Assembly: GCA_933822405.4 (NCBI GenBank) | Contig: CAKOGP040001870.1 | Span: 248,001 to 312,000 of the forward strand | Source of the DNA: Cylindrotheca closterium | Taxonomy: Eukaryota > Bacillariophyta > Bacillariophyceae > Bacillariales > Bacillariaceae | Length of the DNA stretch: 64,000 nucleotides | Reading direction: 5' to 3' | Shown here: positions 1 to 33,069 of the stretch, piece by piece | Numbering within the stretch: the first letter of the stretch is position 1 | How the letters are laid out: every line of letters starts with the position of its first letter | Translations under genes and position numbers: made by a program | Notes under the pieces: model-generated | Seen by the model: the letters and a program-made list of their open reading frames with translations, nothing else | Told to the model about the DNA's origin: nothing | The model's database searches: none

Positions 1-2759
1 GCTTCAAACCACGAGGACTGGTCGACATGAAGGGGAAAGGAGAATATCTTACTCATTGGCTTGAGCGTGGTACAGAGAATAACTATGCTGCAAATCCCGG
101 TTCCTTGCTGACACTCTCCAACAAAGTAAGGAAAAGAATATCGTCCAAAAAGTGGAAGATGAGGAAATACTTCCAAAAACAGCAGCCACAAAAAAGCAGC
201 AGATCGCTTGATTTATCCATTCACTCTGGTGATCCTTCGTGCATGAGTAGTGTGGCGAGTGAAGGGACAAATTCCATCACACTGAATAGTCGGACTAGTT
301 TCAATGACAATGATAATCAAGAGCAAAAGGGGGCTGAAATACAGCACGAAAACATCCTGAATTATTCCGAGGAGCTGCCAAAGGATGCCCAAGAATGGAG
401 AGAGCTCCACTTTGATATCTTCCTCCCAGAAGATGATTTGGTCTCTGAGATTTTTGGTATACTTTTTTCGAAACTGAACAAATGCATCGAAAAGGGCGGG
501 AGACGACTCAAGATTATCAAGGATCAGCTTAGGTCATATGTACAAGCCATTGTCGACCTCTACAACAGTGACAGCGTTTACCACAGCTTGCGCTACGCCG
601 CTGAAGCAATGAACCGGGCGGCATTTTTGATGGACCGCCGATCGGAAGTCGAGAAGAAGGATCCATGGGATGTTTTTATGATGGTATTCGCCATCTTTGT
701 GCGTGACATCCACCACTTAGATATTTCAGATGACCAATTGGAGCATGAACGCCACTATCTCGTCTCACATTACAGAGGCAAAGGTGCCTATCAGCAAAGG
801 AGGTCTTTGGATGCGGCACTTGAAATTCTTGAGGACGACTTTCAGCAGCTCTACGACGAAATCTTTCTAGGATGCCCAACTTTCCGCCGAGGAGTGAAGA
901 AGTTGGCTGTGGCTTCCGCAGAGATTGAAAGCGAAAGCAGGCTCAAGGGAATGCTATCAAGATTTGATTCCCATCAAGACAAACCAAGTGCTCGAGTCCG
1001 AACAGTTCAACATGAAAGTGACGACGTTCTAGCGATGTTTCTTGCACTTGCTACGATGGGCCACTACTGCCAATCTCATGATTTGTTCCTGCATTGGAAT
1101 CAATTGCAACTGATGTCGCAGCTACATTGCTTCGAAAATGATAAACGATCAACAGATCCTTGCAAAAGCTGGCACAAGGAACAAACCTTGATCTTCAAAA
1201 ATACCATCGAACCGATAGTCGCCCGTGTTGAGAAGCTTCTACCACAAAATTCCTGGCTTCGATTTGGTTTCACGAATAATTTGTCTTTGTGGGAGAGAGA
1301 CGGAAGAGAGTGGGTCTCGTCCAGTTTGATTCCTGAAGCCAGGGTCACTGCAGCTCCGTGGGCACACAATTCTGACATGATATCTTCAAATCTGTCGATT
1401 TTGGAGACTCTTTTGGCCGAAATTGCTGCCAGTCGTGGAGAAGATGGCACTGTAGGGGAAGTTGATTGGGAGAGCCTGAAGAAAACTCGCACTCCGTACG
1501 AAGAGATGCGTCTATCACTTGACGTCGGCAGAGTCGACAATCGAGTGAGAATCGACCCATTAAATCATGATGACCTTCCTGCTAGGGTTCAAGAAGAGCT
1601 GCGGGACTTTATGCTGGCGATTTCAAATGGTCATGGTCGAAATGAATTCCATAACTTCCACCATGCAAGCCATGCTGCCCACATTGCTGATCTACTCCTC
1701 CAAAGTCTGGAGACAGAGTCGGATGAAAATCGAAAGATTACGTTCGATCCACTTGTTCGGTTTGCAGTTGTGCTATCCGCATTAGTTCATGATGTTGGAC
1801 ACACTGGCGTGCCAAACAGTCGTCTTAAAGTGGAAAATCCCGAACTCGCAGCCAAGTATAGCAACAAAAGCATTGCCGAACAGAATGCCATTGATATGAC
1901 CTGGAGAATTTTCATGTCCGACGATTTCCAGAATCTTCGAGAGTTCATGTTTGGATCTTCTGTCGCAGATTGCAAGAAGCTTCGCGACTTGATGGTCAAC
2001 GGAATATTGGCCACTGACCTTGAGAATCCCGTTCTGAAAGCACTGCGAAAGAGGCGTTGGTTTAAGGCTTCGACTTGCAAGTTTACAAAAGCGACACTGA
2101 TTATGGAGCACATCCTTCAAATCTCCACTGTGAGTCATTCTATTCAGGTATGGGAAATCTTTTTGGAATGGAATGAAAAGCAGTTTTGGGAATCCTATCT
2201 TGCCTTTTTGGAGGAACGTTCCAAAAAGGACCCTTCCGAAACCTGGTACGAAGATCAGCTCAAGTTCTTCGATGATTTCGTTCTCCCATTGACAGAAACT
2301 GGAACCGAAACTGGAGTCTGGGATATTCTTGGTGATCAGCTATTCCAGCAAGCAACTAGGAATCGCCTGAAGTGGGAACTTGAAGGCAGAAGCATCTGCG
2401 ACTCTTTAATTCAGAAAACCAAAGCCCGTTTCTCAAAGCCATCCGACGCAACGGCAAGCACAGCTGCAGAGAGCATCCTGACATCAACCATCGTGGAACA
2501 GATCGAGTCGCTTTCGAAAGTTATCAAGCGATATGAGCGGAAGGCAGAAACTGCTTGCGGAAATCTGATCACTGTAGCTTACAATGATCATTCCAGCCAG
2601 GCAACCAAAGGGCTTCGTACCAAATCGTGGTCCGAAATTCATCAGCATTTCAAACAACAAGGCTGGTACCGAGTGCACTCAAAAACAACGGATGACGATG
2701 ATGACAGGCCTGAGATGTATTCCAGACCGGTAAAGGATGGTACTGTCGTTGATTGCTAA
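1..2759 (+). CDS. Guanylate cyclase / tandem phosphodiesterase fusion, upstream copy (5' partial)
   Basis: Reading frame 3 is open from the first base to the stop at 2757-2759, so the gene begins upstream of the window. The first codons (FKPRGLVDMKGKGE) are the last strand of a class III nucleotide cyclase domain and align with the same point of the complete paralog at 5808-10468. A basic segment (KVRKRISSKKWKMRK) and an acidic/Ser linker follow. Next comes a degenerate PDE-fold domain (YHSLRY, VRDIHH, MGHYCQSHD, about bases 400-1270). A second PDE domain has FHNFHHASH, HDVGHTGVPN and the ATD motif. A conserved tail of about 60 residues (STIVEQIESLSKVIKRYERK) follows it. The second PDE keeps the catalytic-acid His and three metal ligands, but the fourth ligand Asp is Thr (LQISTVSHS). 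It would act on cyclic nucleotides made by its own cyclase domain. Tandem paralogy to the next cyclase gene is clear; enzymatic activity is uncertain. Confidence 0.9.
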   Translation, partial: FKPRGLVDMKGKGEYLTHWLERGTENNYAANPGSLLTLSNKVRKRISSKKWKMRKYFQKQQPQKSSRSLDLSIHSGDPSCMSSVASEGTNSITLNSRTSFNDNDNQEQKGAEIQHENILNYSEELPKDAQEWRELHFDIFLPEDDLVSEIFGILFSKLNKCIEKGGRRLKIIKDQLRSYVQAIVDLYNSDSVYHSLRYAAEAMNRAAFLMDRRSEVEKKDPWDVFMMVFAIFVRDIHHLDISDDQLEHERHYLVSHYRGKGAYQQRRSLDAALEILEDDFQQLYDEIFLGCPTFRRGVKKLAVASAEIESESRLKGMLSRFDSHQDKPSARVRTVQHESDDVLAMFLALATMGHYCQSHDLFLHWNQLQLMSQLHCFENDKRSTDPCKSWHKEQTLIFKNTIEPIVARVEKLLPQNSWLRFGFTNNLSLWERDGREWVSSSLIPEARVTAAPWAHNSDMISSNLSILETLLAEIAASRGEDGTVGEVDWESLKKTRTPYEEMRLSLDVGRVDNRVRIDPLNHDDLPARVQEELRDFMLAISNGHGRNEFHNFHHASHAAHIADLLLQSLETESDENRKITFDPLVRFAVVLSALVHDVGHTGVPNSRLKVENPELAAKYSNKSIAEQNAIDMTWRIFMSDDFQNLREFMFGSSVADCKKLRDLMVNGILATDLENPVLKALRKRRWFKASTCKFTKATLIMEHILQISTVSHSIQVWEIFLEWNEKQFWESYLAFLEERSKKDPSETWYEDQLKFFDDFVLPLTETGTETGVWDILGDQLFQQATRNRLKWELEGRSICDSLIQKTKARFSKPSDATASTAAESILTSTIVEQIESLSKVIKRYERKAETACGNLITVAYNDHSSQATKGLRTKSWSEIHQHFKQQGWYRVHSKTTDDDDDRPEMYSRPVKDGTVVDC

Positions 2760-5807: not shown

Positions 5808-8800
5808 ATGTATGGTCTAGCATTCGAGATATTCGAAGCCTGGATCGTCGATGACTATGGTAGCGATGCTTGGCGCTCTACAAAGAAGAAGGCTCGTTGC
5901 GAAGTGGAAGCCTTCCTCACCCGTGCCACATACGACTTCAAACTGCTGGTCAAGCTGATAAAGGCAGCATCGCTCTATTTGGACAAAGCTACAGACAAGA
6001 TCCTCAGAAGCTTTGGTAACTACACTGTATCATATCTATTCAATAGCGTATATGGAAGCATACTGAGGAATAACGGTGCCACTCTGAAACAATGGCTATC
6101 CAATATCAACGCCACGTTTGATCACTTTCAAAGAAGTTTCCCTAAAGGAGATGGGTCAAGTCCTCCTGTTTTCTGGTGTGAAGATTACAAAGAAGAGAAA
6201 GGAGCCATCCTGTTACACTACTACAACCCTCGGGGCAATGCTTTCGTCCCATTCGTGGTAGGAGTTGTTGAAGAACTTGCAACCCTTCACTTTGAACTAG
6301 ACATTAAAATGGAGATTCTGGGTCTTCAGAACAGCGGTGACGCTCAATATTCCACGTGGATGATCAAGGCTGCTGATCCTAAGGACAGCTGGAAGGTCAC
6401 ACCAAGTGCACCCAACCGAAGGGGTGGAATGACCAGAAAGTTGAGTTTCGCACAACTTGACGAAATGCCCGACGAACCGTGCCCATTCACTGCCGATACG
6501 CAAGTAGTCCCAGCCAACAATACTGGCAGCGAAGAAGCGCTTAGCGTCAAGAGACTGAAACACGTTTTCCCATTCCACGTGGTGGTGAATCGTGATTTCT
6601 GCATCACTCAAGTTGGCTACAAACTGCCACAAGTCCTAAGGACCGACCAAGCAGATATCTGCGGTAAACATATCAAGGATGTCTTTAAGGTCATTCTTCC
6701 AGAAATGGCCTTTGACTGGGAATGGAGCTCTATGAATCGATTTTGGGATCAAAGCTTCTTCTTGGAGCCAATCGTCGATGCCGTGAAAACATCACAAAAT
6801 GCCAAAATAGATTTCAAAGCCTCGCTGTTGACCCTCTCGTCACAACTCGTCATGATTTCCTTGCGACCAAATGTTAGGGACATCGAAAGTCTGCAAGAAA
6901 CCGGGCTCACACTTTCCGAGCTATCCGACGTGACATCCGAGCGAGATGCTGTGTTCTTGGGAGAATACGTGTCTCGAGAGGCTGGTAAAACACATGCATT
7001 GGACAAATTGAGTAAAGACTTGAAAGCAGAGCAGGTACGTTTCGTGGACGAGTTGTATACCCTTTTCATTTTCTTCTACTCAGGTTCTTACCATAATATA
7101 TTGCACGCACACAGAAACTGTCGGAAACCTTGCTGTACAATATGCTGCCAAAGAATGTCGCGGATGATCTTCGACAGGGGAAAACTGTGGAGCCGCGGTA
7201 TTTTGGGAATGTGACACTTTTCTTTTCCGATATCGAAGGCTTCACAACGCTCTGTGATCAAATCCAACCATGGGATGTCATTGACATGATGAACCAACTT
7301 TATTCTGTCATGGATTTCCTCGTGGATCGATTCAAGCTCTACAAGGTCGAAACAGTCGGTGATGCCTATGTCTGTGCGTCTGGATTGCCTGAAGCGGACG
7401 AATTCCATGGTGAAAAAATTGCCAATTTTGCATTGGCTGTTGTGGAATGCTCCAAGCATGTGAAGTCACCACTTACGGGTGAACCCATCAAGCTACGTAT
7501 TGGTATCCACACGGGGCACTGTACGGCTGGTGTTGTCGGAACATTGACGCCCCATTATTGTCTCTTTGGAGACATGGTGAACTTCACAGCCCGTCACGAA
7601 ACAAGTGGTGCTGCTGGCAGAATTCATTGCTCGAATGATTTGTACGAGCTTCTGCGATCACGATCACCTGCTGGTGCACAACAGTATCGCTTCAAGGCAA
7701 GAGGACTGGTTGATATGAAAGGAAAGGGTGAACACCTTACCCACTGGCTCGAAAAGGGAACCGAAAACAACCACTTTGCCAATCCAGGTTCCCTTCTGAC
7801 ATTGTCAAACAAAGTGAGGAAAAGAATCTCCGCCAAGAAGTGGAAGATGAGGAAGTATTTCCAAGAACAGGCTGCCAACTTTGACGAGTCGAATCGCGCT
7901 TCTTCGGCTTCCGTTTCAGTAGGCTCCGGACTTTCAGTCGTTAGCAGTGTTGCAAGTGGGGCAGCATCAGTTGATAGTCGTACGAGCTTCGTTGAGACTG
8001 CGGTTAGAAAGAATTCGCAGGTTGACGGACAGGAAGAAACAATCATTGACTTCGGAGACCACCTGCCCAAGCATGCTCAAGAATGGAGAGAGCTGCGTTA
8101 TGATAGTATGGTTTCCCAAGAAGAGTTGGTTGACCATGTTTTCGAAATCCTTTTCTCGACATTGAAGAAGTGCATCGACAAAGGGGGGAGACGACTCAAG
8201 GTGATTGAAGATCAGTTACGAGCATACGTGTACTCCATCGTTGGCCTCTACAACCCCGATAGCATCTACCACACTTTGCGGTACAGCGCTGAAGTTATGC
8301 TTCGTGCAGCCTTTTTGATGGAACGCCGTGCCGAAGTCCGAAAGAAAGACCCATGGGATGTTTTCATGATTGTTTTTGCCATTTTTGTTCGAGACATTCA
8401 TCACAATGAGATTTCTGACGAGCAGCTGGAGCAAGAAAATCACTATTATGTTTCGCATTATAAGGGCAAGGGTGCTTACCACCAAAGGAGGTCTTTAGAT
8501 TCGGCGCTTGAGATTCTTGAGGATGATTTTGTGCAGCTGTATGACGAGATCTTCCTCGGTTGCCCTACTTTCCGTCGAGGAGTGAAGAAGTTGGCTGTCG
8601 TTTCAGTGGCTGTTGAAGTTGAAAGCAAGTTCAAGGTCATGCTCGAAAGATTTGACTCCAACAAAGAAAAACCAAATGTTCGAGTCCGTTCAACCCACGG
8701 CGAAAGCGATCCTGTTCTCGAAATGATTGTTGCATTTGCTACAGTAGGTCACTACTGCCAGTCTCATGATTTGTTCCTGCATTGGAACCATTTGCAACTC

Positions 8801-10468
8801 ATGGCTCAACTTCATTGCTTCGAACACGATCGAAAATTGGCAGATCCTCGAAAGGATTGGCATCGAGAACAGTGCATGGTATTCCAAAATACCATCGAGC
8901 CTCTTGTGGGTCGCATGGAGACTTTGCTTCCGCAAAATACTTGGCTTCGATTTACCTGCACCAATAACTTGGCCTTGTGGATGAGAGATGGCAGAGAAGA
9001 AATATCATCCAGTCTGATTCCTCAAGCCAAGGTGAAAGCACAGCCCTGGGCATACAATTCCGATCTGGTATCTTCGAACTTGAACATTTTGGAGTCTCTA
9101 ATGCTTGACATAGCGGCCAATCGTGCTGAAGATGGAACCGTGGGTGAAGTTGACTGGGATAGCATGAAGAAAACCCGGACTCCGTATGAAGAGATGCGTC
9201 TTTCCCTCGAAGTCAACAAGGGTGGCAATGAACAGCAATCTGAAGAAAGCGGTGCTGATGATCTTGTTCCAACTAGAGTTCTGGAAGAGTTACGCGACTT
9301 TGTGCTTTCCGTCGCAAACAGCCATGGAAGAAATGAATTCCGCAACTTTCATCACGCGAGCCACGTTGCTCATATTGCGCACTTGCTCGTGCAAAGTTTG
9401 CAGAAGCATTCAGACGAAGAGCACCCTGTTGCATTCGACCCACTAGTTCGATTCGCTATTGTCCTATCTGCGTTGGTACATGATATTGGGCACACTGGTG
9501 TGTCCAATGCTCGTCTGAAGGTTGAAAACCCACAGTTGGCTGAGAAGTACAGCAACAAGAGCATTTCTGAGCAGAACGCTGTCGATACCGCCTGGAATAT
9601 TTTCATGGCTGACGAACACCAGAATCTTCGCGAGTTCTTGTTTGGATCTTCCGTTGCAGAATGCAAGAGACTTCGTGAGTTGATGGTCAATGGAGTGATG
9701 GCAACCGACTTGTCAGATCCTGTCTTGAAAGCGCTTCGTAAGAGGCGCTGGACAAAGGCCTCGTCTGACGCGAACACCAAGTCGACACTAATCATGGAGC
9801 ACATTCTCCAAGTATCTTCTGTTGGCCATCACTTCCAAGAATGGGGCATCTTTTTGGATTGGAATGAGCGCGAATTTTTGGAGGACTTCCTAGCTTTCTT
9901 AGAAGGCCGCATCTCCGAAGACCCATCAGATGGTTGGCATGCGAAACAACTCAAGAAGTTTGATGACATCGTGCTTCCAATGAGTGAACGTGGCGCCGAA
10001 ACAGACTGCTGGCACATGCTGGGTGATCAGCTCTTCCAGCAAGCGACCATGAATCGACTAAAGTGGGAACTCGAAGGGGAGGAGTTCTGTCGCGCAATGG
10101 CTGAGAAGACAAAATCGAAATTCTCGAAGCCGTCCGATGCAACTGCAACGACAGCGGCAGAGAGCATGTTGACTTCGACCATTGTGGAGCAAATTGAGTC
10201 GCTTTCAAAGGTGATCAAGAGATACGAGCGCAAGGTCGAGACCGCCTGTGGAAATCTAATCACAGTTGCCTACAAGGACAGCCCTGATATTGCTGCTAGC
10301 GGCCTCCGTAAGCAATCGTGGGCCGACATCCGTCGTCATTTCCGGCAACAAGGCTGGTACCGAGTGCATTCGCCCTCGCTTGAAGATGATGAACTCAGTG
10401 GTTTGACTGATGAGAGCGGCAACAAGATGGCTCGAAGGCATTCTGTTGATGTCGTTTTCAATTGCTAA
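5808..10468 (+). CDS. H-NOX / HNOBA guanylate cyclase fused to two phosphodiesterase domains
   Basis: Two exons, 5808-7034 and 7115-10468, join at a codon boundary across an 80-nt GTACGT...ACAG intron and give 1526 aa. The protein starts MYGLAFEIFEAW, the canonical N-terminus of H-NOX domains (residues about 1-185). It then has the PAS-like HNOBA domain (about 250-372), a signalling helix (LLYNMLPKNVADDL) and a class III cyclase (about 430-620). The cyclase has metal Asp448 and Asp492, guanine-type Glu488 and Cys558, and catalytic Asn565 and Arg569, so GTP is the expected substrate. Residues about 690-1010 are a degenerate PDE fold. Residues about 1120-1430 are a second PDE with HDIGHTGVSN at 1198. 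Odd points: the proximal heme His is Phe104, the first PDE has lost three of four metal ligands, the second has Ser1311 for the fourth ligand, and its acid His is Arg1152. It probably makes cGMP; hydrolysis is doubtful. It is the tandem paralog of the gene at the window start. Confidence 0.95.
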
Positions 10469-12794: not shown

Positions 12795-14241
12795 ATGGAA
12801 AACAGTTGGCTACAGAGGCTTATGAACGGGCCAGGCTCCCCGCTGGTGCCACATGTTTCTGCAGAAAATACCCCAAGGGGAACAACGTCTCAAGAGCTTG
12901 ATTTGTTTCTTGCAAGTTCCATGGCCCAGTTAGATGTTCAGCAGCGGTAAGTCTAAAATCTGCCTTATTGTGATGCTTCCAACTTTGTGGCTGACGAAGT
13001 GTATTGACCGCGCCATTTCCATTGCTGAACTTTCAATGCATGTGGACAAAAGAGAAACAGTTTTAGAAGAATTGCACGGGATACGTAACAGTGAAAACCC
13101 CGAGAGCAATCCTGCTTCTGTTGATTTGTGGTTGCAGCTCCTTAATACGCACCTGCAGAGTATCAAGCGAGGGACCGTCTATGAGACTGCCGAAGCTATT
13201 GATCGAACTTATGTCACCAGCAGAAAGTTTCGGATGATGTTTCTGCGCGCGAATCGGTATGATTCTCAGGCTGCAGCAGCCCAAATGATTAAATTCTTGG
13301 AGTTGAAGCGGTCAATCTTTGGCCAAGAAAAACTGACAAGGAAGATAACACTGGCCGATCTGAATGTGGATGACAAAAAGTATCTCGAATCGGGTGCTGC
13401 GCAAATATCGACGAAACGAGATCGATCAGGGAGGGCTATTTTTCTTGTCTTTCCGTCTCTTCGGAGTGAAGAAACCACAGCCGAAGTCGAAACCGTGCTC
13501 AGAGCTCGATATTATGTTCTTATGAATATGATGGAATCTGAAGAGCATCAAAGGAATGGTATAATCCTGATTTACTTCGGTGCGCTAGCGTCACATCGTA
13601 ATCAGCATGCATCAAACTCTGGCCTTCTGTGGGATCTGCCAGTGTTCTATGCCGGCCTTCATTGCTGTTTCAACAGCCTGGCAGCCTATATTTTGATAAG
13701 CGTAGCAGTGCTGCGCTTACCATTTGCAATGAGACCGCGTATGAGGGTGCACTACGGTTCTTGCACAGACTGTCTCTACAAGCTGTCATCGTTTGGCATT
13801 CCCAAAGAAGCCATTCTCAATGACTCCAACGAACCTGATCTGATGGACCATTTGCAATGGTATCGTCACAGACAAGAGCTGGAACTGACATATGTGAGCG
13901 ACAGTGATACCGATATGCAATCTCTCGCGTCAACACACACCATTATTCCTCGACCCGGGGATGTTTTGTTTGGACCCGGTAGTAGGAAGAACGAAGGCAA
14001 TATCCTGATGAGAAATCTAGTTCTCACGGTACTTACCGAATACAACGAGTCTACTAAAAGGGATAAGATGCAGCTCACGAAGACGATAATAGATGAAATC
14101 ACGAAGAAGGGCGGACGGTTCTTGAAGCAAAATGAAGATACGAAGGAGTGGGAAGAAGCCAATCATACGGAGGCCAGTAGGAAAATTGCACACACGTTCA
14201 GGAATATTCGACGACCCAGCCGCGCGAAAAACAAGTCATAG
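12795..14241 (+). CDS. CRAL-TRIO / DUF6824 protein, tandem copy 1
   Basis: Exons 12795-12946 and 13053-14241 join across a 106-nt GTAAGT...AAAAG intron (Arg codon split CG|A), giving 446 aa. The N-terminal exon (MENSWLQRL...SSMAQLDVQQR) is short and low-complexity. Exon 2 begins ETVLEELHGIR. It continues with an alpha-helical segment like CRAL-TRIO N (RKFRMMFLRANRYDSQAAA) and a Sec14-like lipid-binding core (about residues 150-300). Residues 354-440 are a DUF6824-type domain (DVLFGPGSRKNEGN, GGRFLKQNEDTKEW, KIAHTFRNIRR). DUF6824 is widespread in diatoms with no known function; the CRAL-TRIO fold suggests binding of a hydrophobic ligand. An internal open frame crosses the intron from the middle of exon 1, but only the spliced form matches all four paralogs. 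The central part matches copy 4 and both ends match copy 2. Confidence 0.85.
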
Positions 14242-14348
14242 AGCGTCTTGGCGATAGTGAAATTATCTGATAACGTTACGGAAGCCGGGTGACGAGGGCT
14301 ATCAAAGCTGACTCTTGACAACGTGTGTACTGCGTGTACGGCTGGTCG

Positions 14349-14530
14349 TCATAGTCGGGATTGGAACAAGCAAGCCTTGCTGCATCGAAATCTAGCAATG
14401 GGTTTTGAAAACTTATGAGGATTTGAGAAGCACTCAGAAGGAAGGATTACGGATGGTAGGTGCTGGATTTGGAGTACATCTGAAATGATTGCAAGACTGG
14501 TGGAGCTGAATTTTTCGCCTCTCTCATGAT
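14349..14530. repeat. 3' flank duplicated with copy 2
   Basis: The sequence from CAAGCCTTGCTGCATCGAAAT onward (14370-14500) recurs with substitutions after copy 2 (about 16501-16620), so the duplicated unit extends past the stop codons. Confidence 0.6.
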
Positions 14531-14658
14531 GTGTGCAATCATTGGAGCGCTGAAAGGTCTCCCCCACACATGGTGACTCCAAAACAAAGACAACAGTACC
14601 AATGATGCTCTGTAGTCCGATAACAAGCCTGAGAAAGGTTGATATTTGTCCCATGACA
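14531..14658 (-). pseudogene. Relic of the 5' part of the gapped membrane-protein gene
   Basis: About 128 bases align by eye with 11597-11720: GTGCAATCATTGGAGCGC, GATGACTCCAAA, TGTAGTCCGATAA and GAGAAAGGTTGATATTTGTCCCATGAC are shared. On the minus strand it starts MGQISTFLRLVIGLQS against MGQISTFLRPIIGLQI. The frame then departs from the parent after RSNDCT, and a stop lies just upstream, so only a fragment remains. Confidence 0.7.
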
Positions 14659-14917
14659 AATGATGAAACGCAGTGATAAAATTATACGATAGTAATATAG
14701 GAAAATAATAATCTGGATGGTGCCAATAAAAGGGAACCTTGAAACTCCCTTCAAAAAATGGGGTGGATGATGAACCCGCATTGTATATAATAATATGTAT
14801 TGAATATTAGCCGTGCGTTCTCCGTTCAAATTTTTTATTTCGATTGCACATTGCTCGCATCCAATATGCAATAATATCGAAAAGCAACTCCAATTCGGTT
14901 TCCTTATCATAAACAAG

Positions 14918-16358
14918 ATGGACAACTATTGGCTACAGAGGCTTATGAACGGGCCAGGCTCCCCGCTGGTGCCACATGTTTGTGCAGAAAATACCCACAG
15001 GGGAACAACGTCGCAAGAGCTTGATTCGTTTCTTGCAAGTTCCATGGCCCAGTTAGATGTTCAGCAGCGGTAAGTCTAAAATCTGCCTTATTGTGATGCT
15101 TCCAACTTTGTGGCTGACGAAGTGTATTGACCGCGCCATTTCCATTGCTGAACTTTCAATGCATGTGGACAAAAGAGAAACAGTTTTAGAAGAATTGCAC
15201 GGGATACGTAACAGTGAAAACCCCGAGAGCAATCCTGCTTCTGTTGATTTGTGGTTGCAGCTCCTTAATACGCACCTGCAGAGTATCAAGCGAGGGACCG
15301 TCTATGAGACTGCCGAAGCTATTGATCGAACTTATGTCACCAGCAGAAAGTTTCGGATGATGTTTCTGCGTGCGAATCGGTATGATTCTCAGGCTGCAGC
15401 AGCCCAAATGATTAAATATTTGGAATTGAAAAGGTCACTCTTTGGCCAAGAAAGACTGACAAGGAAGATAACATTGGCCGATCTGGATCAGGATGACAAA
15501 GCTTGCCTAGAATCAGGTGTCACACAAATATCTACCAAACGAGATCGATCCGGGAGAGCAATTATTCTTGTCTTTCCATCTCTAGGAAGAGAAGAAACCA
15601 CAACCGAAGCCTTGACCAGAGCACGATTCTACGTTGTGATGAGTTTGCTTGAATCAGAGGAATATCAAATGAATGGAGTAGTGCTGGTTTACTTTGGCGC
15701 GGTAACGTCTCAGCGAAACCAGCATGCATCGAACTCTGGTCTTCTGTGGGATCTGCCGATTTTCTTGGCAGGCATTCATTGCTGTTTCAGCGAGCTGTCA
15801 ACCTTTCTCTTTATCAGCGTAGCAGTTCTGCGCTTACCATCCACACGGCGACCACGCATGAGGATTCATTACGGCTCTGCTACTGACTGTCTCTACAAGC
15901 TGGCATCGTTTGGCATTCCCAAAGAAGCCATTCTCAATGACTCCAACGAACCTGATCTGATGGACCATTTGCAATGGTATCGTCACAGACAAGAGCTGGA
16001 ACTGACATATGTGAGCGACAGTGATACCGATATGCAATCTCTCGCGTCAACACACACCATTATTCCTCGACCCGGGGATGTTTTGTTTGGACCCGGTAGT
16101 AGGAAGAACGAAGGCAATATCCTGATGAGAAATCTAGTTCTCACGGTACTTACCGAATACAACGAGTCTACTAAAAGGGATAAGATGCAGCTCACGAAGA
16201 CGATAATAGATGAAATCACGAAGAAGGGCGGACGGTTCTTGAAGCAAAATGAAGATACGAAGGAGTGGGAAGAAGCCAATCATACGGAGGCCAGTAGGAA
16301 AATTGCACACACGTTCAGGAATATTCGACGACCCAGCCGCGCGAAAAACAAGTCATAG
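14918..16358 (+). CDS. CRAL-TRIO / DUF6824 protein, tandem copy 2
   Basis: Exons 14918-15069 and 15176-16358 give 444 aa, with a 106-nt intron almost identical to that of copy 1. The domain order is as in copy 1: short N-terminal exon (MDNYWLQRL), CRAL-TRIO N helices, Sec14-like core and C-terminal DUF6824. About the first 500 bases and the last 450 bases are nearly identical to copy 1. The middle (15420-15860) differs at many codons (YLELKRSLFGQERLTRK, DQDDKACLESGVTQ, two residues shorter). That pattern of identical ends and a divergent core indicates gene conversion. The start ATG is conserved in position with the other copies (M-x-N-x-W-L-Q-R-L). Confidence 0.85.
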
Positions 16359-17738
16359 AGCGTCTTATGGTGAGATCGGAGTTCTCTGATAACGTTACGG
16401 AAGCCGGGTGACGAGGGCTATCAAAGCTGACTCTTGAGAACGTGCGTAGTGAGTGCACGGTTGTTCGTCCTGATCCAACTGGGTAGCATTGGGCCAATAA
16501 TCAAGCCTTGCTGCATCGAAATCAAGCAATGGATTTTGGAAATGTATAAAAGTTTGGGTAGCATTCAGAAGGAAGGATTACAGATGGCGAATGAGTTTGG
16601 AGTACTTATGCCATGCTTAAGATGAATTGGAGAAATGAAGTACAGACCTGCTGTTGATGCATTTCTAAGAGATTGAGAACCACCTCCAGCAACAGGAGAA
16701 CTTAGAACTGGATATTGATGTATTGTATTCGACCTAGTTATAGGATGCCGTGCGAAGAAATCAGTGGCGAGGTGCAAGTGGAAACTTCAGTGGAAGTCTA
16801 GCGGCTACCACCAACCTGAGAACTGAGAACTAGTCAACTACAGTATGATACCGTACCCCGCCTTTGAGTTAAATTGAATTCACCATGGTCGTAATATATT
16901 GTACACCTAGTTGTGGAACGTCGGGGAGGAAATCATCACCTAGTAGGCGCAGCAATCAGCCATCATCTCACGCTTTTCCCACCTGTCGGATTTCTTCCCT
17001 GGTGGATTGCTGAAAAAGTATTCAAATTTCGTAGGTATTACACTTTACTCTTTTATAAATCCACTTGAGGGATTGGAGCAGGAAGCTCGGTGCCAAGTCA
17101 ATTGAGAATGCATTGTGGCCAAGACAATGCTCCTGAACGTATATGAATGATTCTTCCAGCAATAGTCCCACTGAGAAATAGTTGATGTGGGAAAAGTTGT
17201 TGTCGTCGTCCTCTGTATACCTGTAGAATCTACTGTAATGGACAGAACCCAATAATCTTCGTTTTCTTTCTCTTTGCCCAAAGACATTTCGAAGATGGCA
17301 AATTCAAGCTTCTGCAACTATTCATGGTGCGGGAACTCGAGCACGTACACGTTCCAGCGTGTACCAAATACTATATATACTGTCCCGGTAGATTCGTTCG
17401 ATCTTTCCGGTGTAATTTCAGTTTTGTGTAGGAATAGGAGAGTGGGTCAGCCATTCGGATATACCGTATCAATAAGTGAGAAACAGCATACCGGGACATT
17501 GGAAAGGTAAAGAATCAAACTTTTGTGATACGTGATACAATACTGGATTTCGCTGAAATTCGTGTAGACGTGTTCCGGTACGATGATCTTCTGAACGAGC
17601 ACGGAGAAATGTATACCATATGCAGTTGAAGTTTCGGTCGGAAAGGCATAGCGGTCGCGAAGCGATGGTGGTTCGTTATCATAATCATTGACCCTACCAA
17701 ACAATTACTCTCAGCATCAGTTCCGTGAAAGTTCCATC
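16359..17738. other. Intergenic between CRAL-TRIO copies 2 and 3
   Basis: The first 270 bases are the duplicated 3' flank shared with copy 1. The rest has only short unconserved open frames and presumably contains the promoter of copy 3, including a CTATATATAC stretch near 17371. Confidence 0.4.
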
Positions 17739-19164
17739 ATGACAAACAACAACAGTTGGCTTCAGAGGCTGCTAGGTGGCACAGACTCACCCTACATATC
17801 GCCTCATTATGCGGAAAACGACAACGAAGGGATCACAAAACAACAGCTTGATTCTTTCTTAGCCAGTTCAATGGCCCAGCTGGATGTGCGGCAACGGTAA
17901 GCCATTTGTTCCTGGGTTCTATATGGGGTGTTGCTACGAACGAAGCGTGCTCATGGTCGATTTTTAATTGATGCATAGGGAGTCCATTCTTGAAGATCTA
18001 CACGGGATACGTAACAGTGAAAACCCCGAGAGCAATCCTGCTTCTGTTGAACTCTGGTTGCAGCTTCTTGATATGCACCTTCAGAATATCAAGCGAGGGT
18101 CTGTTTATGAGACTGCTGAAGCTATTGATCGAATATATGTCACAAGCAGAAAGTTTCGGATGATGTTTCTTCGTTCCAATCGGTATGATCCTCAGGCTGC
18201 AGCAGGTCAAATGATTAAATTCTTGGAACTGAAGCGGTCACTCTTTGGCCAAGAAAAACTGACACGGAAGATACTATTGACTGATTTGAATGAGGACGAG
18301 AAAACGTATCTCGAATCGGGTACTCTACAAATATCGACGAAACGAGATCGATCAGGGAGAGAAATTCTTCTTGTCTTTCCATCTCTCCGAAGAACCGGAA
18401 CCGAAGTCCAAGTCAACACCGCGCTTAGATCGCGATACTACGTGCTCATGAATATGCTGGAATCTGAGGAGAATCAAAGGAATGGAATAGTACTGGTTTA
18501 CTTTGGTGCTTTGTCACAACCTAATCAGCGCGAATCCAACTCTGGCCTTCTTTGGGATCTGCCAGTTTTCTTGGCAGGTATTCATTGCTGTTTCAATAAC
18601 CTGGCAGCCTATCTTTTGATAAGCGTTGCAGTTCTGCGCTTACCATTCGCTCTCAGACCACGTATGAGGGTGCACTACGGTACTTGTACTGAATGTCTGG
18701 ACAAGCTGGCATCGTTTGGCATTACCAAAGAAGCCATTCTCAATGACTCCAACGAACCCAATCTGATTGGCCATATGCAATGGTGTCGTCACAGACAAGA
18801 GCTGGAACTGACATATGTGAGCGAAAGTGACGCCGAATCGGTATCGCTTGCGTCAACAGGTTCTATCATTCCTCGACCGTTGGACGTTTTGTTTGGACCC
18901 GGCAGTAGGAAGAATGAAGGTAATATCCTTGTGAGAAATCTTGCTCACAAGGTCCTTGCCGAATACAACGATTCTACTAACAATGATAAGGTGCAGCTCA
19001 CGGAGACGATAATAGATGAAGTCACGAAGAGAGGCGGAAGGTTCTTGAAGCAAAATGACGATACGAAGGAGTGGGAAGAAGCAAGTCACATCGAGGCTTG
19101 TAGGAAGATCGCGCACACATTTCGGAACATTCGACGACCCAGCCGTGCGAAAAGCAAGTCATGA
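17739..19164 (+). CDS. CRAL-TRIO / DUF6824 protein, tandem copy 3
   Basis: Exons 17739-17896 and 17979-19164 join across an 82-nt GTAAGC...GCATAG intron (Arg codon split CG|G), giving 447 aa. Exon 1 reads MTNNNSWLQRLLGGTDSP...SSMAQLDVRQR and exon 2 ESILEDLHGIRNSENP. The fold is as in the other copies, with the DUF6824 hallmark (DVLFGPGSRKNEGNILVRN, GGRFLKQNDDTKEW, RKIAHTFRNIRRPSRAKSKS). The intron sits at exactly the same position and phase as in copies 1 and 2 but its sequence is unrelated to theirs; it matches copy 4. This is the most divergent copy in the core (RRTGTEVQVNTALRSR). Confidence 0.85.
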
Positions 19165-20228
19165 AGGTGAGGGGTGAGGGCTAAAAACTCTGATAATCTA
19201 TGTTAACGAGGGCTATCAAAGTGGACACTCGGCAACATTGGGGTTCTTGTACTGAGCGTCTCAATCGATATATTCATGGGACCAGCCTATTGGTTGGCTT
19301 TCATTTACTGGGATATAGCACATCATGAAACAATTATTTCTATTTTTAAAAATAGTCATGTCTGCAGAGTTGTAGTTGTCATGTGCTATGGGTTCATTAG
19401 GTATGTAGTATGTACTTCAGATTCTGTTTGTGGTAGGCACATTACTGTACAGAAATATTTGAAGAATTTTGTTGGAGTTGAGTTATTTTTCCCTTCCAAT
19501 ATTATTATAAAAAATACTGTACTAGCTGTCCTGTAGTGAAAGAGAAAATACAACAGCTCTGAAACTGAAAACTGTGTCTGTGTCTGTGGGATTCGTTTTA
19601 TTTTCATTTCCGTTGCTATCATGTTGTATCATAATTACCTACTGCAGCGTCAGTTTCAATGACAGTATTTCCCAACAGTGCCCACGGTATCCTGCAACAA
19701 GAGTCGTCCATTCATGTTTGTACCGCTGCCACAAATCGAAAGATCCTCTATCTGAAAAAAGAAGCCATCGGAAACAACAACAAAGACCACCAAACCTCCT
19801 TCCAGCTACAACAAGACCGAAGTCAAACAATTCCAGCAGCTTCACAAAATCCTCGCCGATATGAATATGGAAAATAATCGAGGACCCGCATGCTGCACTG
19901 TATCATTTACCTACCGCAGTCAAGAGTATACTAACTCTTGGTGCAGTATAATACCTCCCGGTACCACATATATATATACTGTAGACTGTAGGTCCACAGG
20001 TGCTTTTTGAAATTTTTGCTTCATGGCCCCAAAATTCCAAATTCCTTCCTGGATTCTGGAAAACAATAACCCGCCGCACGGTGCGGCCGGCGGTGGCTCA
20101 TCACTACAGCACTATACAGTACCGGTATACACCGGTATACCTGAAGTACTACACATTCATATATTATATCATCATCGCAGCACACCGCGGTCAAAATATA
20201 AGCCTTTTACCAGTTCTGCGGGAGTTCC
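19165..20228. other. Intergenic between CRAL-TRIO copies 3 and 4
   Basis: Short open frames occur near 19574-19877 with low-complexity Gln/Ser/Lys content and no paralog. ATATATATATA at 19969-19979 and two CCGGTATAC elements at 20121-20139 lie upstream of copy 4. Confidence 0.4.
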
Positions 20229-21669
20229 ATGATGAACAACTCTTGGCTACAGAGGTTGCTGACTGGCACACATTTACCCGCGATATCTCCTCCGTATGCG
20301 GAAGACAACAATGTGGGAGGCACACGGCAACAGCTTGATTCTTTCTTAGCCAGTTCAATGGCCCAGTTGGATGTTCGGCAACGGTAAGCCATTTGTTCCT
20401 AAGCTATTTGTTCCTGGGTTCTATATGGGGTGTTGCTACGAACGAAGCGTGCTCATGGTCGATTTTTAATTGATGCATAGAGAGTCCATTCTTGAAGATC
20501 TACACGGGATACGTAACAGTGAAAACCCCGAGAGCAATCCTGCTTCTGTTGAACTCTGGTTGCAGCTTCTTGATATGCACCTTCAGAATATCAAACGAGG
20601 GACCGTCTATGAGACTGCCGAAGCTATTGATCGAGTATATGTCACAAGCAGAAAGTTTCGGATGATGTTTCTTCGTTCCAATCGGTATGATCCTCAGGCT
20701 GCAGCAGGTCAAATGATTAAATTCTTGGAACTGAAGCGGTCACTCTTTGGCCAAGAAAAACTGACACGGAAGATAACATTGACTGATTTGAATGAGGATG
20801 ACAAAAAGTACCTCGAATCGGGTGCTGTGCAAATATCGACGAAACGAGATCGATCAGGGAGGGCTATTTTTCTTGTCTTTCCGTCTCTTCGGAGTGAAGA
20901 AACCACAGCCGAAGTCGAAACCGTGCTCAGAGCTCGATATTATGTTCTTATGAATATGATGGAATCTGAAGAGCATCAAAGGAATGGAATAATCCTGATT
21001 TACTTCGGTGCGCTAGCGTCACATCGTAATCAGCATGCATCGAACTCTGGCCTTCTGTGGGACCTGCCTGTGTTCTTTGCCGGCCTTCATTGCTGTTTCA
21101 ACGAGATGTCAACCTTTCTTTTTGTCAGTGTTGCAGTTCTGCGCTTACCATTCGCTCTCAGACCCCGTATGAGGGTGCACTACGGTTCTTGTACTGATTG
21201 TCTCTACAAGCTGGCATCGTTTGGCATTCCCAAAGAAGCCATTCTTAATGACTCCAACGAACCCAATCTGATGGACCATTTGCAATGGTATCGTCACAGA
21301 CAAGAGCTGGAACTGACATCTGTGAGCGACAGTGATACCGACATGCAATCACTCGCGTCAACAGGTACTATCATTCCTCGACCGTTGGACGTTTTGTTTG
21401 GACCCGGCAGTAGGAAGAACGACGGCAACATCCTGATGAAAAATCTTGTTCTCGCGATGCTGGATGAGCACAACGAGTCCAAGAAGGGGAGAAAGATGCA
21501 GCTCACGGAGACGATAATAGATGAAATCACGAAGAAGGGCGGACGGTTCTTGAAGCAGAATGATGATACGAAACATTGGGACGAGGTGACTCACTTGGAG
21601 GCCTGCAGAAAAATTGCACACACGTTCAGGAACATTCGACGGCCCAGCCGTGCGAGAAAGAAAGCGTAG
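20229..21669 (+). CDS. CRAL-TRIO / DUF6824 protein, tandem copy 4
   Basis: Exons 20229-20383 and 20481-21669 give 447 aa. The 97-nt intron equals that of copy 3 plus a 15-base internal duplication (CCATTTGTTCCTAAG / CTATTTGTTCCTGGG). Two adjacent ATGs open the frame (MMNNSWLQRL). The 5' part of exon 2 is nearly identical to copy 3. The core from about 20812 to 21092 is nearly identical to copy 1. The 3' DUF6824 part has private changes (KNDGNILMKNLVLAMLDEHNES, TKHWDEVTHLEACRK). It is the last member of the array, followed by a minus-strand TIR-like gene. Confidence 0.85.
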
Positions 21670-30890: not shown

Positions 30891-32345
30891 CTATTTCATA
30901 GCAATAGCTTTGCCGGACATCATTTTTTGGGGTCGCCATCCCATAAAGTCTTTGATTGCTTCTACAGCAAGAAAGGAAATTGCGCCCGTTGGCGCCAATT
31001 TGATCAAGTTTGGGACTAGACCAGCGTACACACCTTTGATCCCTTCCTTTGCAACGACCTGACGGAGACAATCAACTGTACCAGAGTATTGAATTGGTCT
31101 GCCCCCGATACCTTGGACCTGTAACCGCTTCCAAGCCATTTGAAAGGGAAAGGCAACAAAACATGCCGTCATACTGGATATTGCGCCCAAGGGTATACCA
31201 ATGAGTGGATTGGCGGGGCGTGGATCATCCGGTGGACGATTGAAGGTGGTATACTGTACCTTCAGCATATCATAGACGAAGAACTGGGTACCATAATATG
31301 GAACTGCAAACATGTTGGCTGGAAGCAGTCCCTTGTAAAGCCCTCGCATACCCTCCTCCTTGACTGTACTCTTCAAACAATCTAACATCCCATCGTATGC
31401 GCCAGGTGAAGTCATTAGCCGGGTGCGAATGAGATCAATCGGATACACACCTGTTTGGCAGACAATACCGCTTGACATTGATGCAGCGAGTGTCTGAAGA
31501 GGCGTCGGCTTGTTTCCTTCACCAGCATACACAACTTTGAAGTAGTCCTTTGCATAGAAAGCAATAGCCATTTGTGGTGCAATTCTACCAATATTGAGTG
31601 CATTACCCGCCCAAAATCCAGTGATTCCCTCAACTTTGAAGATATCTTGCATACAAGCAAGCATGCTCGGATACCTGCCAGCATCTGCAATCATTTGGAC
31701 TCGAGTTCGTTCCAATGGTGCGATGATTGTCCTTGAAATGGAATTTCCTAAACCTCCAGCAACAGCTGAAGTCCATGCCGGAACTGTTTTGGATTCGTCG
31801 CGCTTTGCAGAACGGGAAACGTCAATGGCAGATACACCGGCTAAATCAGAGTCAGATTCATATTCCATCCACGTGTCCTTCAGAGATGAAAAATGCGAGG
31901 GATGCAATAGAGCAAAACCTGATCTGAACTCTTCAAATGACAGTCGTTGGTCTCCGTCCTTGTCTAGCTTTCTCATAAGCATCGATGCATTCTTAATCGG
32001 TAGATCGAGGTGGTATAGAAACAACTTCAGTTCTTGAAAGTCGATGAATCCACTGTTGTCTCTGTCTACGCTCTCAAAGAGGACTTTCATATCTTCGTGC
32101 TTCATTCCAACCCATTCCTTGAACTCCTCGAAATCGATTTCGGAGTTATTGTCTTTGTCGAGTGTGGTGAAAACATCAAAGGCATAGTTTGCTGGATACC
32201 GCAGTTTTTGAAGACCTTCTTGAACCTCGGCAAAATCAAGTGAGCCAGAGTTGTCTGTATCCAATTCCACAAAGACTTTGTAAATCTCATCTGAAAAAGA
32301 CCCTCCTTTCCCCGACACGCCGCCTTTGCTCGAGCTGGCTCCCAT
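30891..32345 (-). CDS. Calcium-dependent mitochondrial ATP-Mg/Pi-type carrier (SCaMC-like), 484 aa
   Basis: An intronless minus-strand gene has ATG at 32345. The N-terminal half carries four EF-hands (loops at about 29-40, 63-74, 94-105 and 128-139). Loops 1 and 3 are canonical (DTDNSGSLDFAE, DRDNSGFIDFQE), while loops 2 and 4 lack the usual Gly at position 6. The C-terminal half has three mitochondrial carrier repeats with signatures PLERTR, PIDLIRTR and a degenerate third PFQMAWKR. This layout is that of SLC25A23/24/25-type ATP-Mg/phosphate carriers of the inner mitochondrial membrane, where Ca2+ on the intermembrane side switches adenine nucleotide exchange. Length fits the family (about 470-490 aa). 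No mitochondrial presequence is seen, as expected for carriers. Confidence 0.93.
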   Translation of the reverse strand: MGASSSKGGVSGKGGSFSDEIYKVFVELDTDNSGSLDFAEVQEGLQKLRYPANYAFDVFTTLDKDNNSEIDFEEFKEWVGMKHEDMKVLFESVDRDNSGFIDFQELKLFLYHLDLPIKNASMLMRKLDKDGDQRLSFEEFRSGFALLHPSHFSSLKDTWMEYESDSDLAGVSAIDVSRSAKRDESKTVPAWTSAVAGGLGNSISRTIIAPLERTRVQMIADAGRYPSMLACMQDIFKVEGITGFWAGNALNIGRIAPQMAIAFYAKDYFKVVYAGEGNKPTPLQTLAASMSSGIVCQTGVYPIDLIRTRLMTSPGAYDGMLDCLKSTVKEEGMRGLYKGLLPANMFAVPYYGTQFFVYDMLKVQYTTFNRPPDDPRPANPLIGIPLGAISSMTACFVAFPFQMAWKRLQVQGIGGRPIQYSGTVDCLRQVVAKEGIKGVYAGLVPNLIKLAPTGAISFLAVEAIKDFMGWRPQKMMSGKAIAMK

Positions 32346-33069
32346 TTTACTGTCCAGTGGCTCGCACTTTGGCTATACGGTCAGTCTGATGATGCAGGTG
32401 AACAAACACTTCTCTTCGTTTATATATATTATGATAGATGACTGCCACCGAACTGTATAATGCAACGATCGATCTTATGAGTCTCTCGAGTGACTGACTG
32501 ACTCAACTCATCGTCATGCAGTATGCAGTATTCCGGAACATTCAAAATGCTAAAGAAAACCGGCTGGCGTGAAAGGGAATTCCGCGACTAACCATTGACA
32601 GCTAGACGGACGGACTGACCGACGGTGGAGTGATGAGATACTCGCTCACGTTCCGTGTGGCACGTACAGTTACCAGGCACGAGTATCAGTACCGGTACCG
32701 GTACCAGGTAGTGTTGAAAAGTGAAAATAAAAGTGAGTCCATCGTCAAGTGAGTCATCAGTCGACTTCCATGACTATTCGACTGTATATCTCAAGTTTCT
32801 GCCCCACTGTACCTGGTACCTATTGTACGATGGGGAGGGTAGAGTGACAACCCACGACCCACCAAACAAGGATCTATACGTAGTGTCAATATCAAAGTGT
32901 CGATTGTCAAGAATATCATGTACACGATGGACAAGGGATGGGTAAAAAGACACGATCTCCCAACATGTTGCCAAAGTATCACCACCACTTACTACGTGTG
33001 TAGGCTCGGATTTTGCATTCAAGAGCAATTCAAACATCACCAATTATACGTATATTATTATTTGAGACA
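32346..33069. other. Promoter-side interval with CGGTACC palindromes
   Basis: TTTATATATATTATGA lies about 75-90 bases upstream of the carrier ATG. AGTACCGGTACCGGTACCAG at 32689-32708 is a tandem palindrome. Open frames here overlap on both strands without recognisable domains. Confidence 0.45.

Follow-up and report, generated by a model that had tools for sequence, protein, structure and literature searches.

Does a protein that combines a gas sensor, a guanylate cyclase (GC) and two phosphodiesterase (PDE) folds also work as a device that senses a gas and both makes and destroys cyclic GMP (cGMP)? The question is posed by a gene of the diatom Cylindrotheca closterium that lies in the 64,000-nucleotide stretch of DNA analysed here (the window; assembly GCA_933822405.4, contig CAKOGP040001870.1, forward-strand positions 248,001 to 312,000). 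It occupies window positions 5808..10468 on the plus strand, as do all of its parts given below, in two exons (5808-7034 and 7115-10468), and encodes a 1526-residue protein identical to the deposited protein P0001. The initial annotation had proposed that H-NOX, HNOBA, a signalling helix, a cyclase and two PDE folds follow one another in one polypeptide and form a self-contained unit of gas sensing, synthesis and breakdown. Domain matches bear out the order and confirm a single chain with all six elements, and the HNOB match expected within residues 1-185 is found at residues 2-169. The proposed working of the unit does not carry over to this gene. Judging from its residues, we consider it probable that the gene encodes a conserved guanylate cyclase, blind to nitric oxide (NO) and equipped with pseudo-PDE domains, which belongs to a heme-less, PDE-dead diatom branch. 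The loss of the heme ligand and of the PDE metal ligands, as read from the alignments, is itself firm; because the residue that holds the heme and the PDE residues are lost, the probable outcome is cGMP synthesis without NO sensing.

What has the sensor lost? The H-NOX domain (residues 2-169; 5811..6314) retains its fold according to domain, model and fold matches, and its heme ligand is gone. His-102, Pro-115, Ile/Val/Leu-5 and the YxS/TxR motif are described, in the accessible part of PMC1435932, as common to all H-NOB sequences of the alignment given there. In the window gene, Phe104 (6117..6119) stands at the site of the heme-ligating His (H105 of human beta1), both in our family alignment and against human beta1; Ala5 (5820..5822) occupies a position to which the same source, as far as accessible, assigns a heme pyrrole contact (PMC1435932); and Asn140 (6225..6227) replaces the Ser/Thr of the heme-propionate motif, which here reads Y-x-N-x-R. 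Among 73 H-NOX rows, drawn from this genome and from relatives found by protein search, 68 have a residue at the heme-ligating column (the remaining five were not counted), namely 63 His, 3 Phe and 2 Ile. The exceptions are Phe in the window gene, P0002 and P0003, and Ile in L022 and P0004, so that His is kept in 63 of 63 rows outside these five proteins. The same five carry Ala at residue 5 (5/5, versus V/I/L/M in all 57 others with a residue there) and Asn at the YxSxR Ser position (5/5, versus S/T in 66 of 66 others), and three of them have exchanged Tyr138 for His; Pro120, which corresponds by alignment to the Pro-115 heme contact, and Arg142 are kept. Mice with a His105-to-Phe knock-in are reported, in the accessible part of PMC4699393, to have a heme-free, NO-unresponsive soluble guanylate cyclase (sGC) with raised basal activity. 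The window gene carries the counterpart of this change naturally, and human beta1, like the window protein, also has a His two residues beyond the column concerned.

The two PDE folds have lost their ligands as well. The first (PDE1, residues ~732-1035; 8081..8992) was not detected by the Pfam scan of the genome and was detected by PDB sequence search and in the predicted structure; Y799, R835 and T952 replace ligands in it, while H795 and D836 are kept. In the second (PDE2, a domain match at residues 1151-1331; 9338..9880), alignment places Arg1152 (9341..9343) at the catalytic His site and Ser1311 (9818..9820) at the fourth metal ligand (Asp) site of most relatives, with H1156, H1198 and D1199 kept. 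The gene thus has the fold of a class I cyclic nucleotide PDE and lacks the H/H/D/D metal set with catalytic His; that the lost residues are metal ligands we take from the family alignment and from PDE4/PDE5 structures.

These PDE losses differ in reach. The final metal Asp of PDE1 is absent in all 34 first-of-two PDE rows, nearly all of which have lost further ligands (P0024 lacks the final Asp only), and a full metal set is found in 6 of 18 single-PDE rows (P0031 from Ditylum brightwellii, P0033, P0035, P0036, P0037 and P0040). Of 36 PDE2-type rows, 30 retain the PDE2 metal Asp, and the six without it are the five heme-less proteins, among which L022 has Thr, and P0028; P0003 has also lost the HD Asp of PDE2. 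In a midpoint-rooted PDE tree, from which 22 of 88 domain pieces were excluded as near-copies, fragments or distant rows, first-of-two and single PDEs group together (100/100) and second PDEs form a separate group (100/99) that lies towards the rows P0046-P0048, putative receptor-type GC/PDE proteins to judge by their domain content and by what P0048 is called. Because of this grouping and the intact sets of single PDEs, an active PDE1 was likely ancestral, PDE2 was added later and PDE1 then decayed, an order that we infer.

Is the cyclase competent? Class III guanylate cyclases have two metal-binding Asp, a Glu/Cys pair for the guanine, and an Asn/Arg pair. All five proteins of the heme-less group retain the corresponding residues (D448, D492, E488, C558, N565 and R569 in the window gene), of which the Glu and Cys mark guanine specificity. 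In the window gene the Class III cyclase domain (residues 437-622; 7196..7753) has guanylyl cyclases as its top PDB sequence matches, and neither half of the homodimeric site (D, D, N, R) is missing. It is preceded by the PAS-like HNOBA domain with the start of the signalling helix (residues 245-428; 6540..7171), recognised by PAS fold matches and interrupted by the intron; the helix spans residues 378-408 in the predicted structure. The best PDB matches are sGC beta1 chains, 6jt0_B (E 1e-29) and, by fold, 8hbe_B; the VIA-align lists re-examine Foldseek matches dominated by single domains, and folds missing there carry no meaning. The 80-bp GT..AG intron (7035..7114; phase 0, after residue 409) recurs with unchanged position and phase in the L015, L020, L021 and L022 models, and relative P0002 reads across the exon junction.

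The architecture is not unique to this gene. Pfam scans of the C. closterium genome located 15 HNOB places, 14 of which adjoin HNOBA, cyclase and PDE places. These 14 multidomain genes include the window gene; 13 have the full H-NOX-HNOBA-GC-PDE-PDE chain, and L012 has a single PDE. One-PDE versions occur in Ditylum brightwellii and among metagenome proteins. Spliced models with GT-AG introns were built for the 13 paralogues (L010-L022), of which eight are identical to proteins found in the protein search; the model of L010 probably retains an unspliced intron, since it has 30 extra GC residues absent from the deposited P0017. Twelve of these paralogues (L010-L021) keep the heme His, all 11 of them with a PDE2 keep its Asp, and PDE1 is degenerate; His and PDE2 metal set together are thus kept in 11 of the 13 paralogues. 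The thirteenth, the tandem neighbour L022 (C330:246089-250759, protein 67% identical), whose 3' part occupies 1..2759 of the window on the plus strand, has Ile at the heme His and the same kind of losses as the window gene. At the distal column 149, the single column tested for oxygen sensing, no Tyr occurs in 67 rows outside the heme-less group, which favours NO over oxygen as the putative ligand of the heme-bearing paralogues.

The fifteenth HNOB place (L009; C340:209000-218900, minus strand, locus 5648-4269) encodes a stand-alone 459-residue H-NOX protein with His and YxSxR intact; an HNOBA match lies ~3.2 kb off on the opposite strand within a 1696-residue frame. L016 and L018 (C101:455500-470600) are near-identical tandem H-NOX-GC-PDE-PDE genes with a whole-gene pS (synonymous differences per site) of 0.02, a recent duplication. 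Cyclase and PDE families are both very large in this genome: counted exon by exon over six frames, there are 113 matches to PDEase_I and at least 170 to Guanylate_cyc, the latter count being capped by scoring.

Is the heme-less group a lineage held by selection? In a quick, midpoint-rooted tree of 46 rows (excluding P0017, P0034, P0042, P0043, P0046-P0048, P0049-P0051 and deposited proteins identical to models), the window gene, P0002, P0003, P0004 and L022 form one clade (Shimodaira-Hasegawa-like approximate likelihood ratio test 100, stem 0.64) nested inside the other rows. The aligned rows as such are not independent: a single genome contributes many of them, near-copies make up several, and P0017 and L010 represent the same gene. 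Three intact relatives at 88, 83 and 68% identity, the 88% one derived from a transcript, share the losses of the window gene. The ratio of nonsynonymous to synonymous differences (pN/pS) between the window gene and L022 is 0.27 overall and 0.11-0.32 by domain, a comparison of limited use because the synonymous rate (dS) is saturated. We also compared domain identities between C. closterium and a Bacillariaceae sp. metagenome-assembled genome (MAG; proteins sharing one locus-tag prefix). The heme-less pair L022-P0004 shows 82% for H-NOX, 93 for GC, 87 for PDE1 and 86 for PDE2, against 89, 90, 81 and 84% for the canonical pair L014-P0015 and 90, 91, 75 and 81% for the canonical pair L016-P0008. 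Measured in this way, dead PDEs drift no faster than live ones and are under no weaker constraint than in the two canonical pairs, while the heme-less branch may have a less tightly conserved H-NOX. The clade is conserved and shows signs of purifying selection. Among the candidates scored, a profile search with P0001-P0004 listed no further protein whose identity to the first row exceeds 45%, which is not a census: the protein searches scored the best 7,981-7,992 candidates by shared words, and further members may be missed because this word-limited search also left out L022.

How might such a chain work? We envision a scenario whereby the protein dimerises through its PAS domain and signalling helix, which would pass on a signal, and whereby cGMP is made without NO gating, either at a basal rate or as set by another input. 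The two PDE folds would then act as structural or regulatory modules and not as cGMP hydrolases, and the cell would hold NO-gated, self-limiting chains (the paralogues) next to an ungated, unlimited one. More tentatively, diatoms may possess an 'alpha-like' sGC class of their own, free of heme and of hydrolysis, that arose from one-chain NO sensors independently of animals and uses its empty H-NOX pocket and dead PDEs as regulatory modules, alone or in partnership with heme-bearing sisters. For dissecting an NO-cGMP enzyme, one genome offers natural sets: chains whose sensor and one hydrolase are intact, one that lacks the second hydrolase, and a branch in which both are dead and the cyclase site is live. 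The gene points to a second loss of heme in an H-NOX cyclase lineage, outside animals, raises the question of what role dead PDE folds still kept by selection might have, and corrects the tempting equation of a domain list with a working feedback device.

Alternatively, the heme-less chain may dimerise with a heme-bearing paralogue that senses NO for both, as an alpha-like partner. There is precedent in animal sGC, in which only the beta H-NOX is said to bind heme in the accessible part of PMC6839917, and 12 multidomain paralogues keep the His within the same PAS/helix architecture. Against this, the cyclase keeps both halves of the homodimer site, and therefore no obligate complementarity has evolved; the tandem neighbour is likewise heme-less. 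We regard such a partnership as unlikely, and still less likely is a re-purposed pocket, in which the heme-free fold would bind another ligand that gates the cyclase: we know of no candidate ligand, and the members of the clade differ from one another at pocket residues 138 and 149. The device proposed by the initial annotation has every domain present in order, and the residues of 11 of the 13 paralogues permit it. For those genes we retain it, as far as sequence can tell; for the window gene it is highly improbable and was rejected on residues, since the proximal heme His, the YxSxR Ser and Ile/Val-5 are lost and both PDEs miss metal ligands. That the gene is simply decaying, as lost key residues in two kinds of domain and the long stem branch (0.64) might indicate, is the least credible reading and was rejected in view of its intact 1526-residue frame, its intact relatives and a pN/pS well below 1.

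Besides the saturated codon rates, several points weigh against an NO-blind cyclase with pseudo-PDE domains. On the sensor side, the H-NOX might bind heme without the proximal His or through His106, and model confidence drops between residues 101 and 120, to block means of 70 and 63. A looser H-NOX is also not confined to the heme-less branch, because the MAG protein P0030 (H-NOX incomplete, one PDE) has 61-79% identity in H-NOX, against 83-87% in GC, to its three nearest heme-bearing paralogues. On the PDE side, the catalytic His of PDE2 lost in the window gene is kept in L022, P0002, P0003 and P0004, two PDB alignments for PDE2 stop short of the lost metal Asp, and the retained H1156, H1198 and D1199 might allow weak hydrolysis. 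Finally, P0028 has lost PDE2 residues yet keeps the heme His, so that heme loss and PDE2 loss do not always go together; within the clade both fall on one stem branch, which is a single coincidence.

How does the chain compare with known systems? With animal sGC (beta1, alpha1) it shares the HNOB-HNOBA-helix-GC order and, with alpha, a heme-free H-NOX; animal H-NOX cyclase chains are without PDE, whereas the window chain adds two PDE folds and keeps a homodimer-type cyclase site, and its heme loss is nested within a diatom clade of relatives that bear heme. The mouse beta1 H105F protein has the same exchange in the same column, but is a laboratory mutant without PDE, as far as described in PMC4699393, while here the exchange is fixed in nature. 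The one-PDE diatom and metagenome proteins have the same domains, and their PDE groups with PDE1; P0031 and the five others with full metal sets differ in keeping the heme His as well and in lacking PDE2. The paralogues L010-L021 share the architecture (L012 without PDE2) and the degenerate PDE1, and differ in the retained heme His and PDE2 Asp. In Seminavis, bifunctional transmembrane GC/PDE fusions respond to sex pheromone; these pennate proteins likewise combine GC and PDE in one chain, and the PDE2 of the window chain falls on the P0046-P0048 side of our tree, but an extracellular stretch is described for them and no H-NOX is mentioned in the accessible part of the report (PMC8027222). Mating of Pseudo-nitzschia multistriata goes along with strong induction of a soluble guanylate cyclase, according to the part of PMC5485032 that is accessible; an H-NOX-GC-PDE chain is described in neither of these two sources, as far as accessible. 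In literature titles and the openings of abstracts, a scope that mostly excludes subscription journals, we found no description of an H-NOX-GC-PDE chain in diatoms.

H-NOX also occurs in other company: the metagenome proteins P0078 and P0079 combine H-NOX and HNOBA with the domains of a histidine kinase and a response regulator, and they keep the heme His. Elsewhere in the window, four tandem frames on the plus strand within 12934-21666 (12934-14238, 15057-16355, 17968-19161 and 20470-21666) each carry a C-terminal DUF6824 domain (E 3e-17 or better), and a frame on the minus strand (30894-32372) joins EF-hands and mitochondrial carrier domains in the layout of a calcium-regulated carrier.
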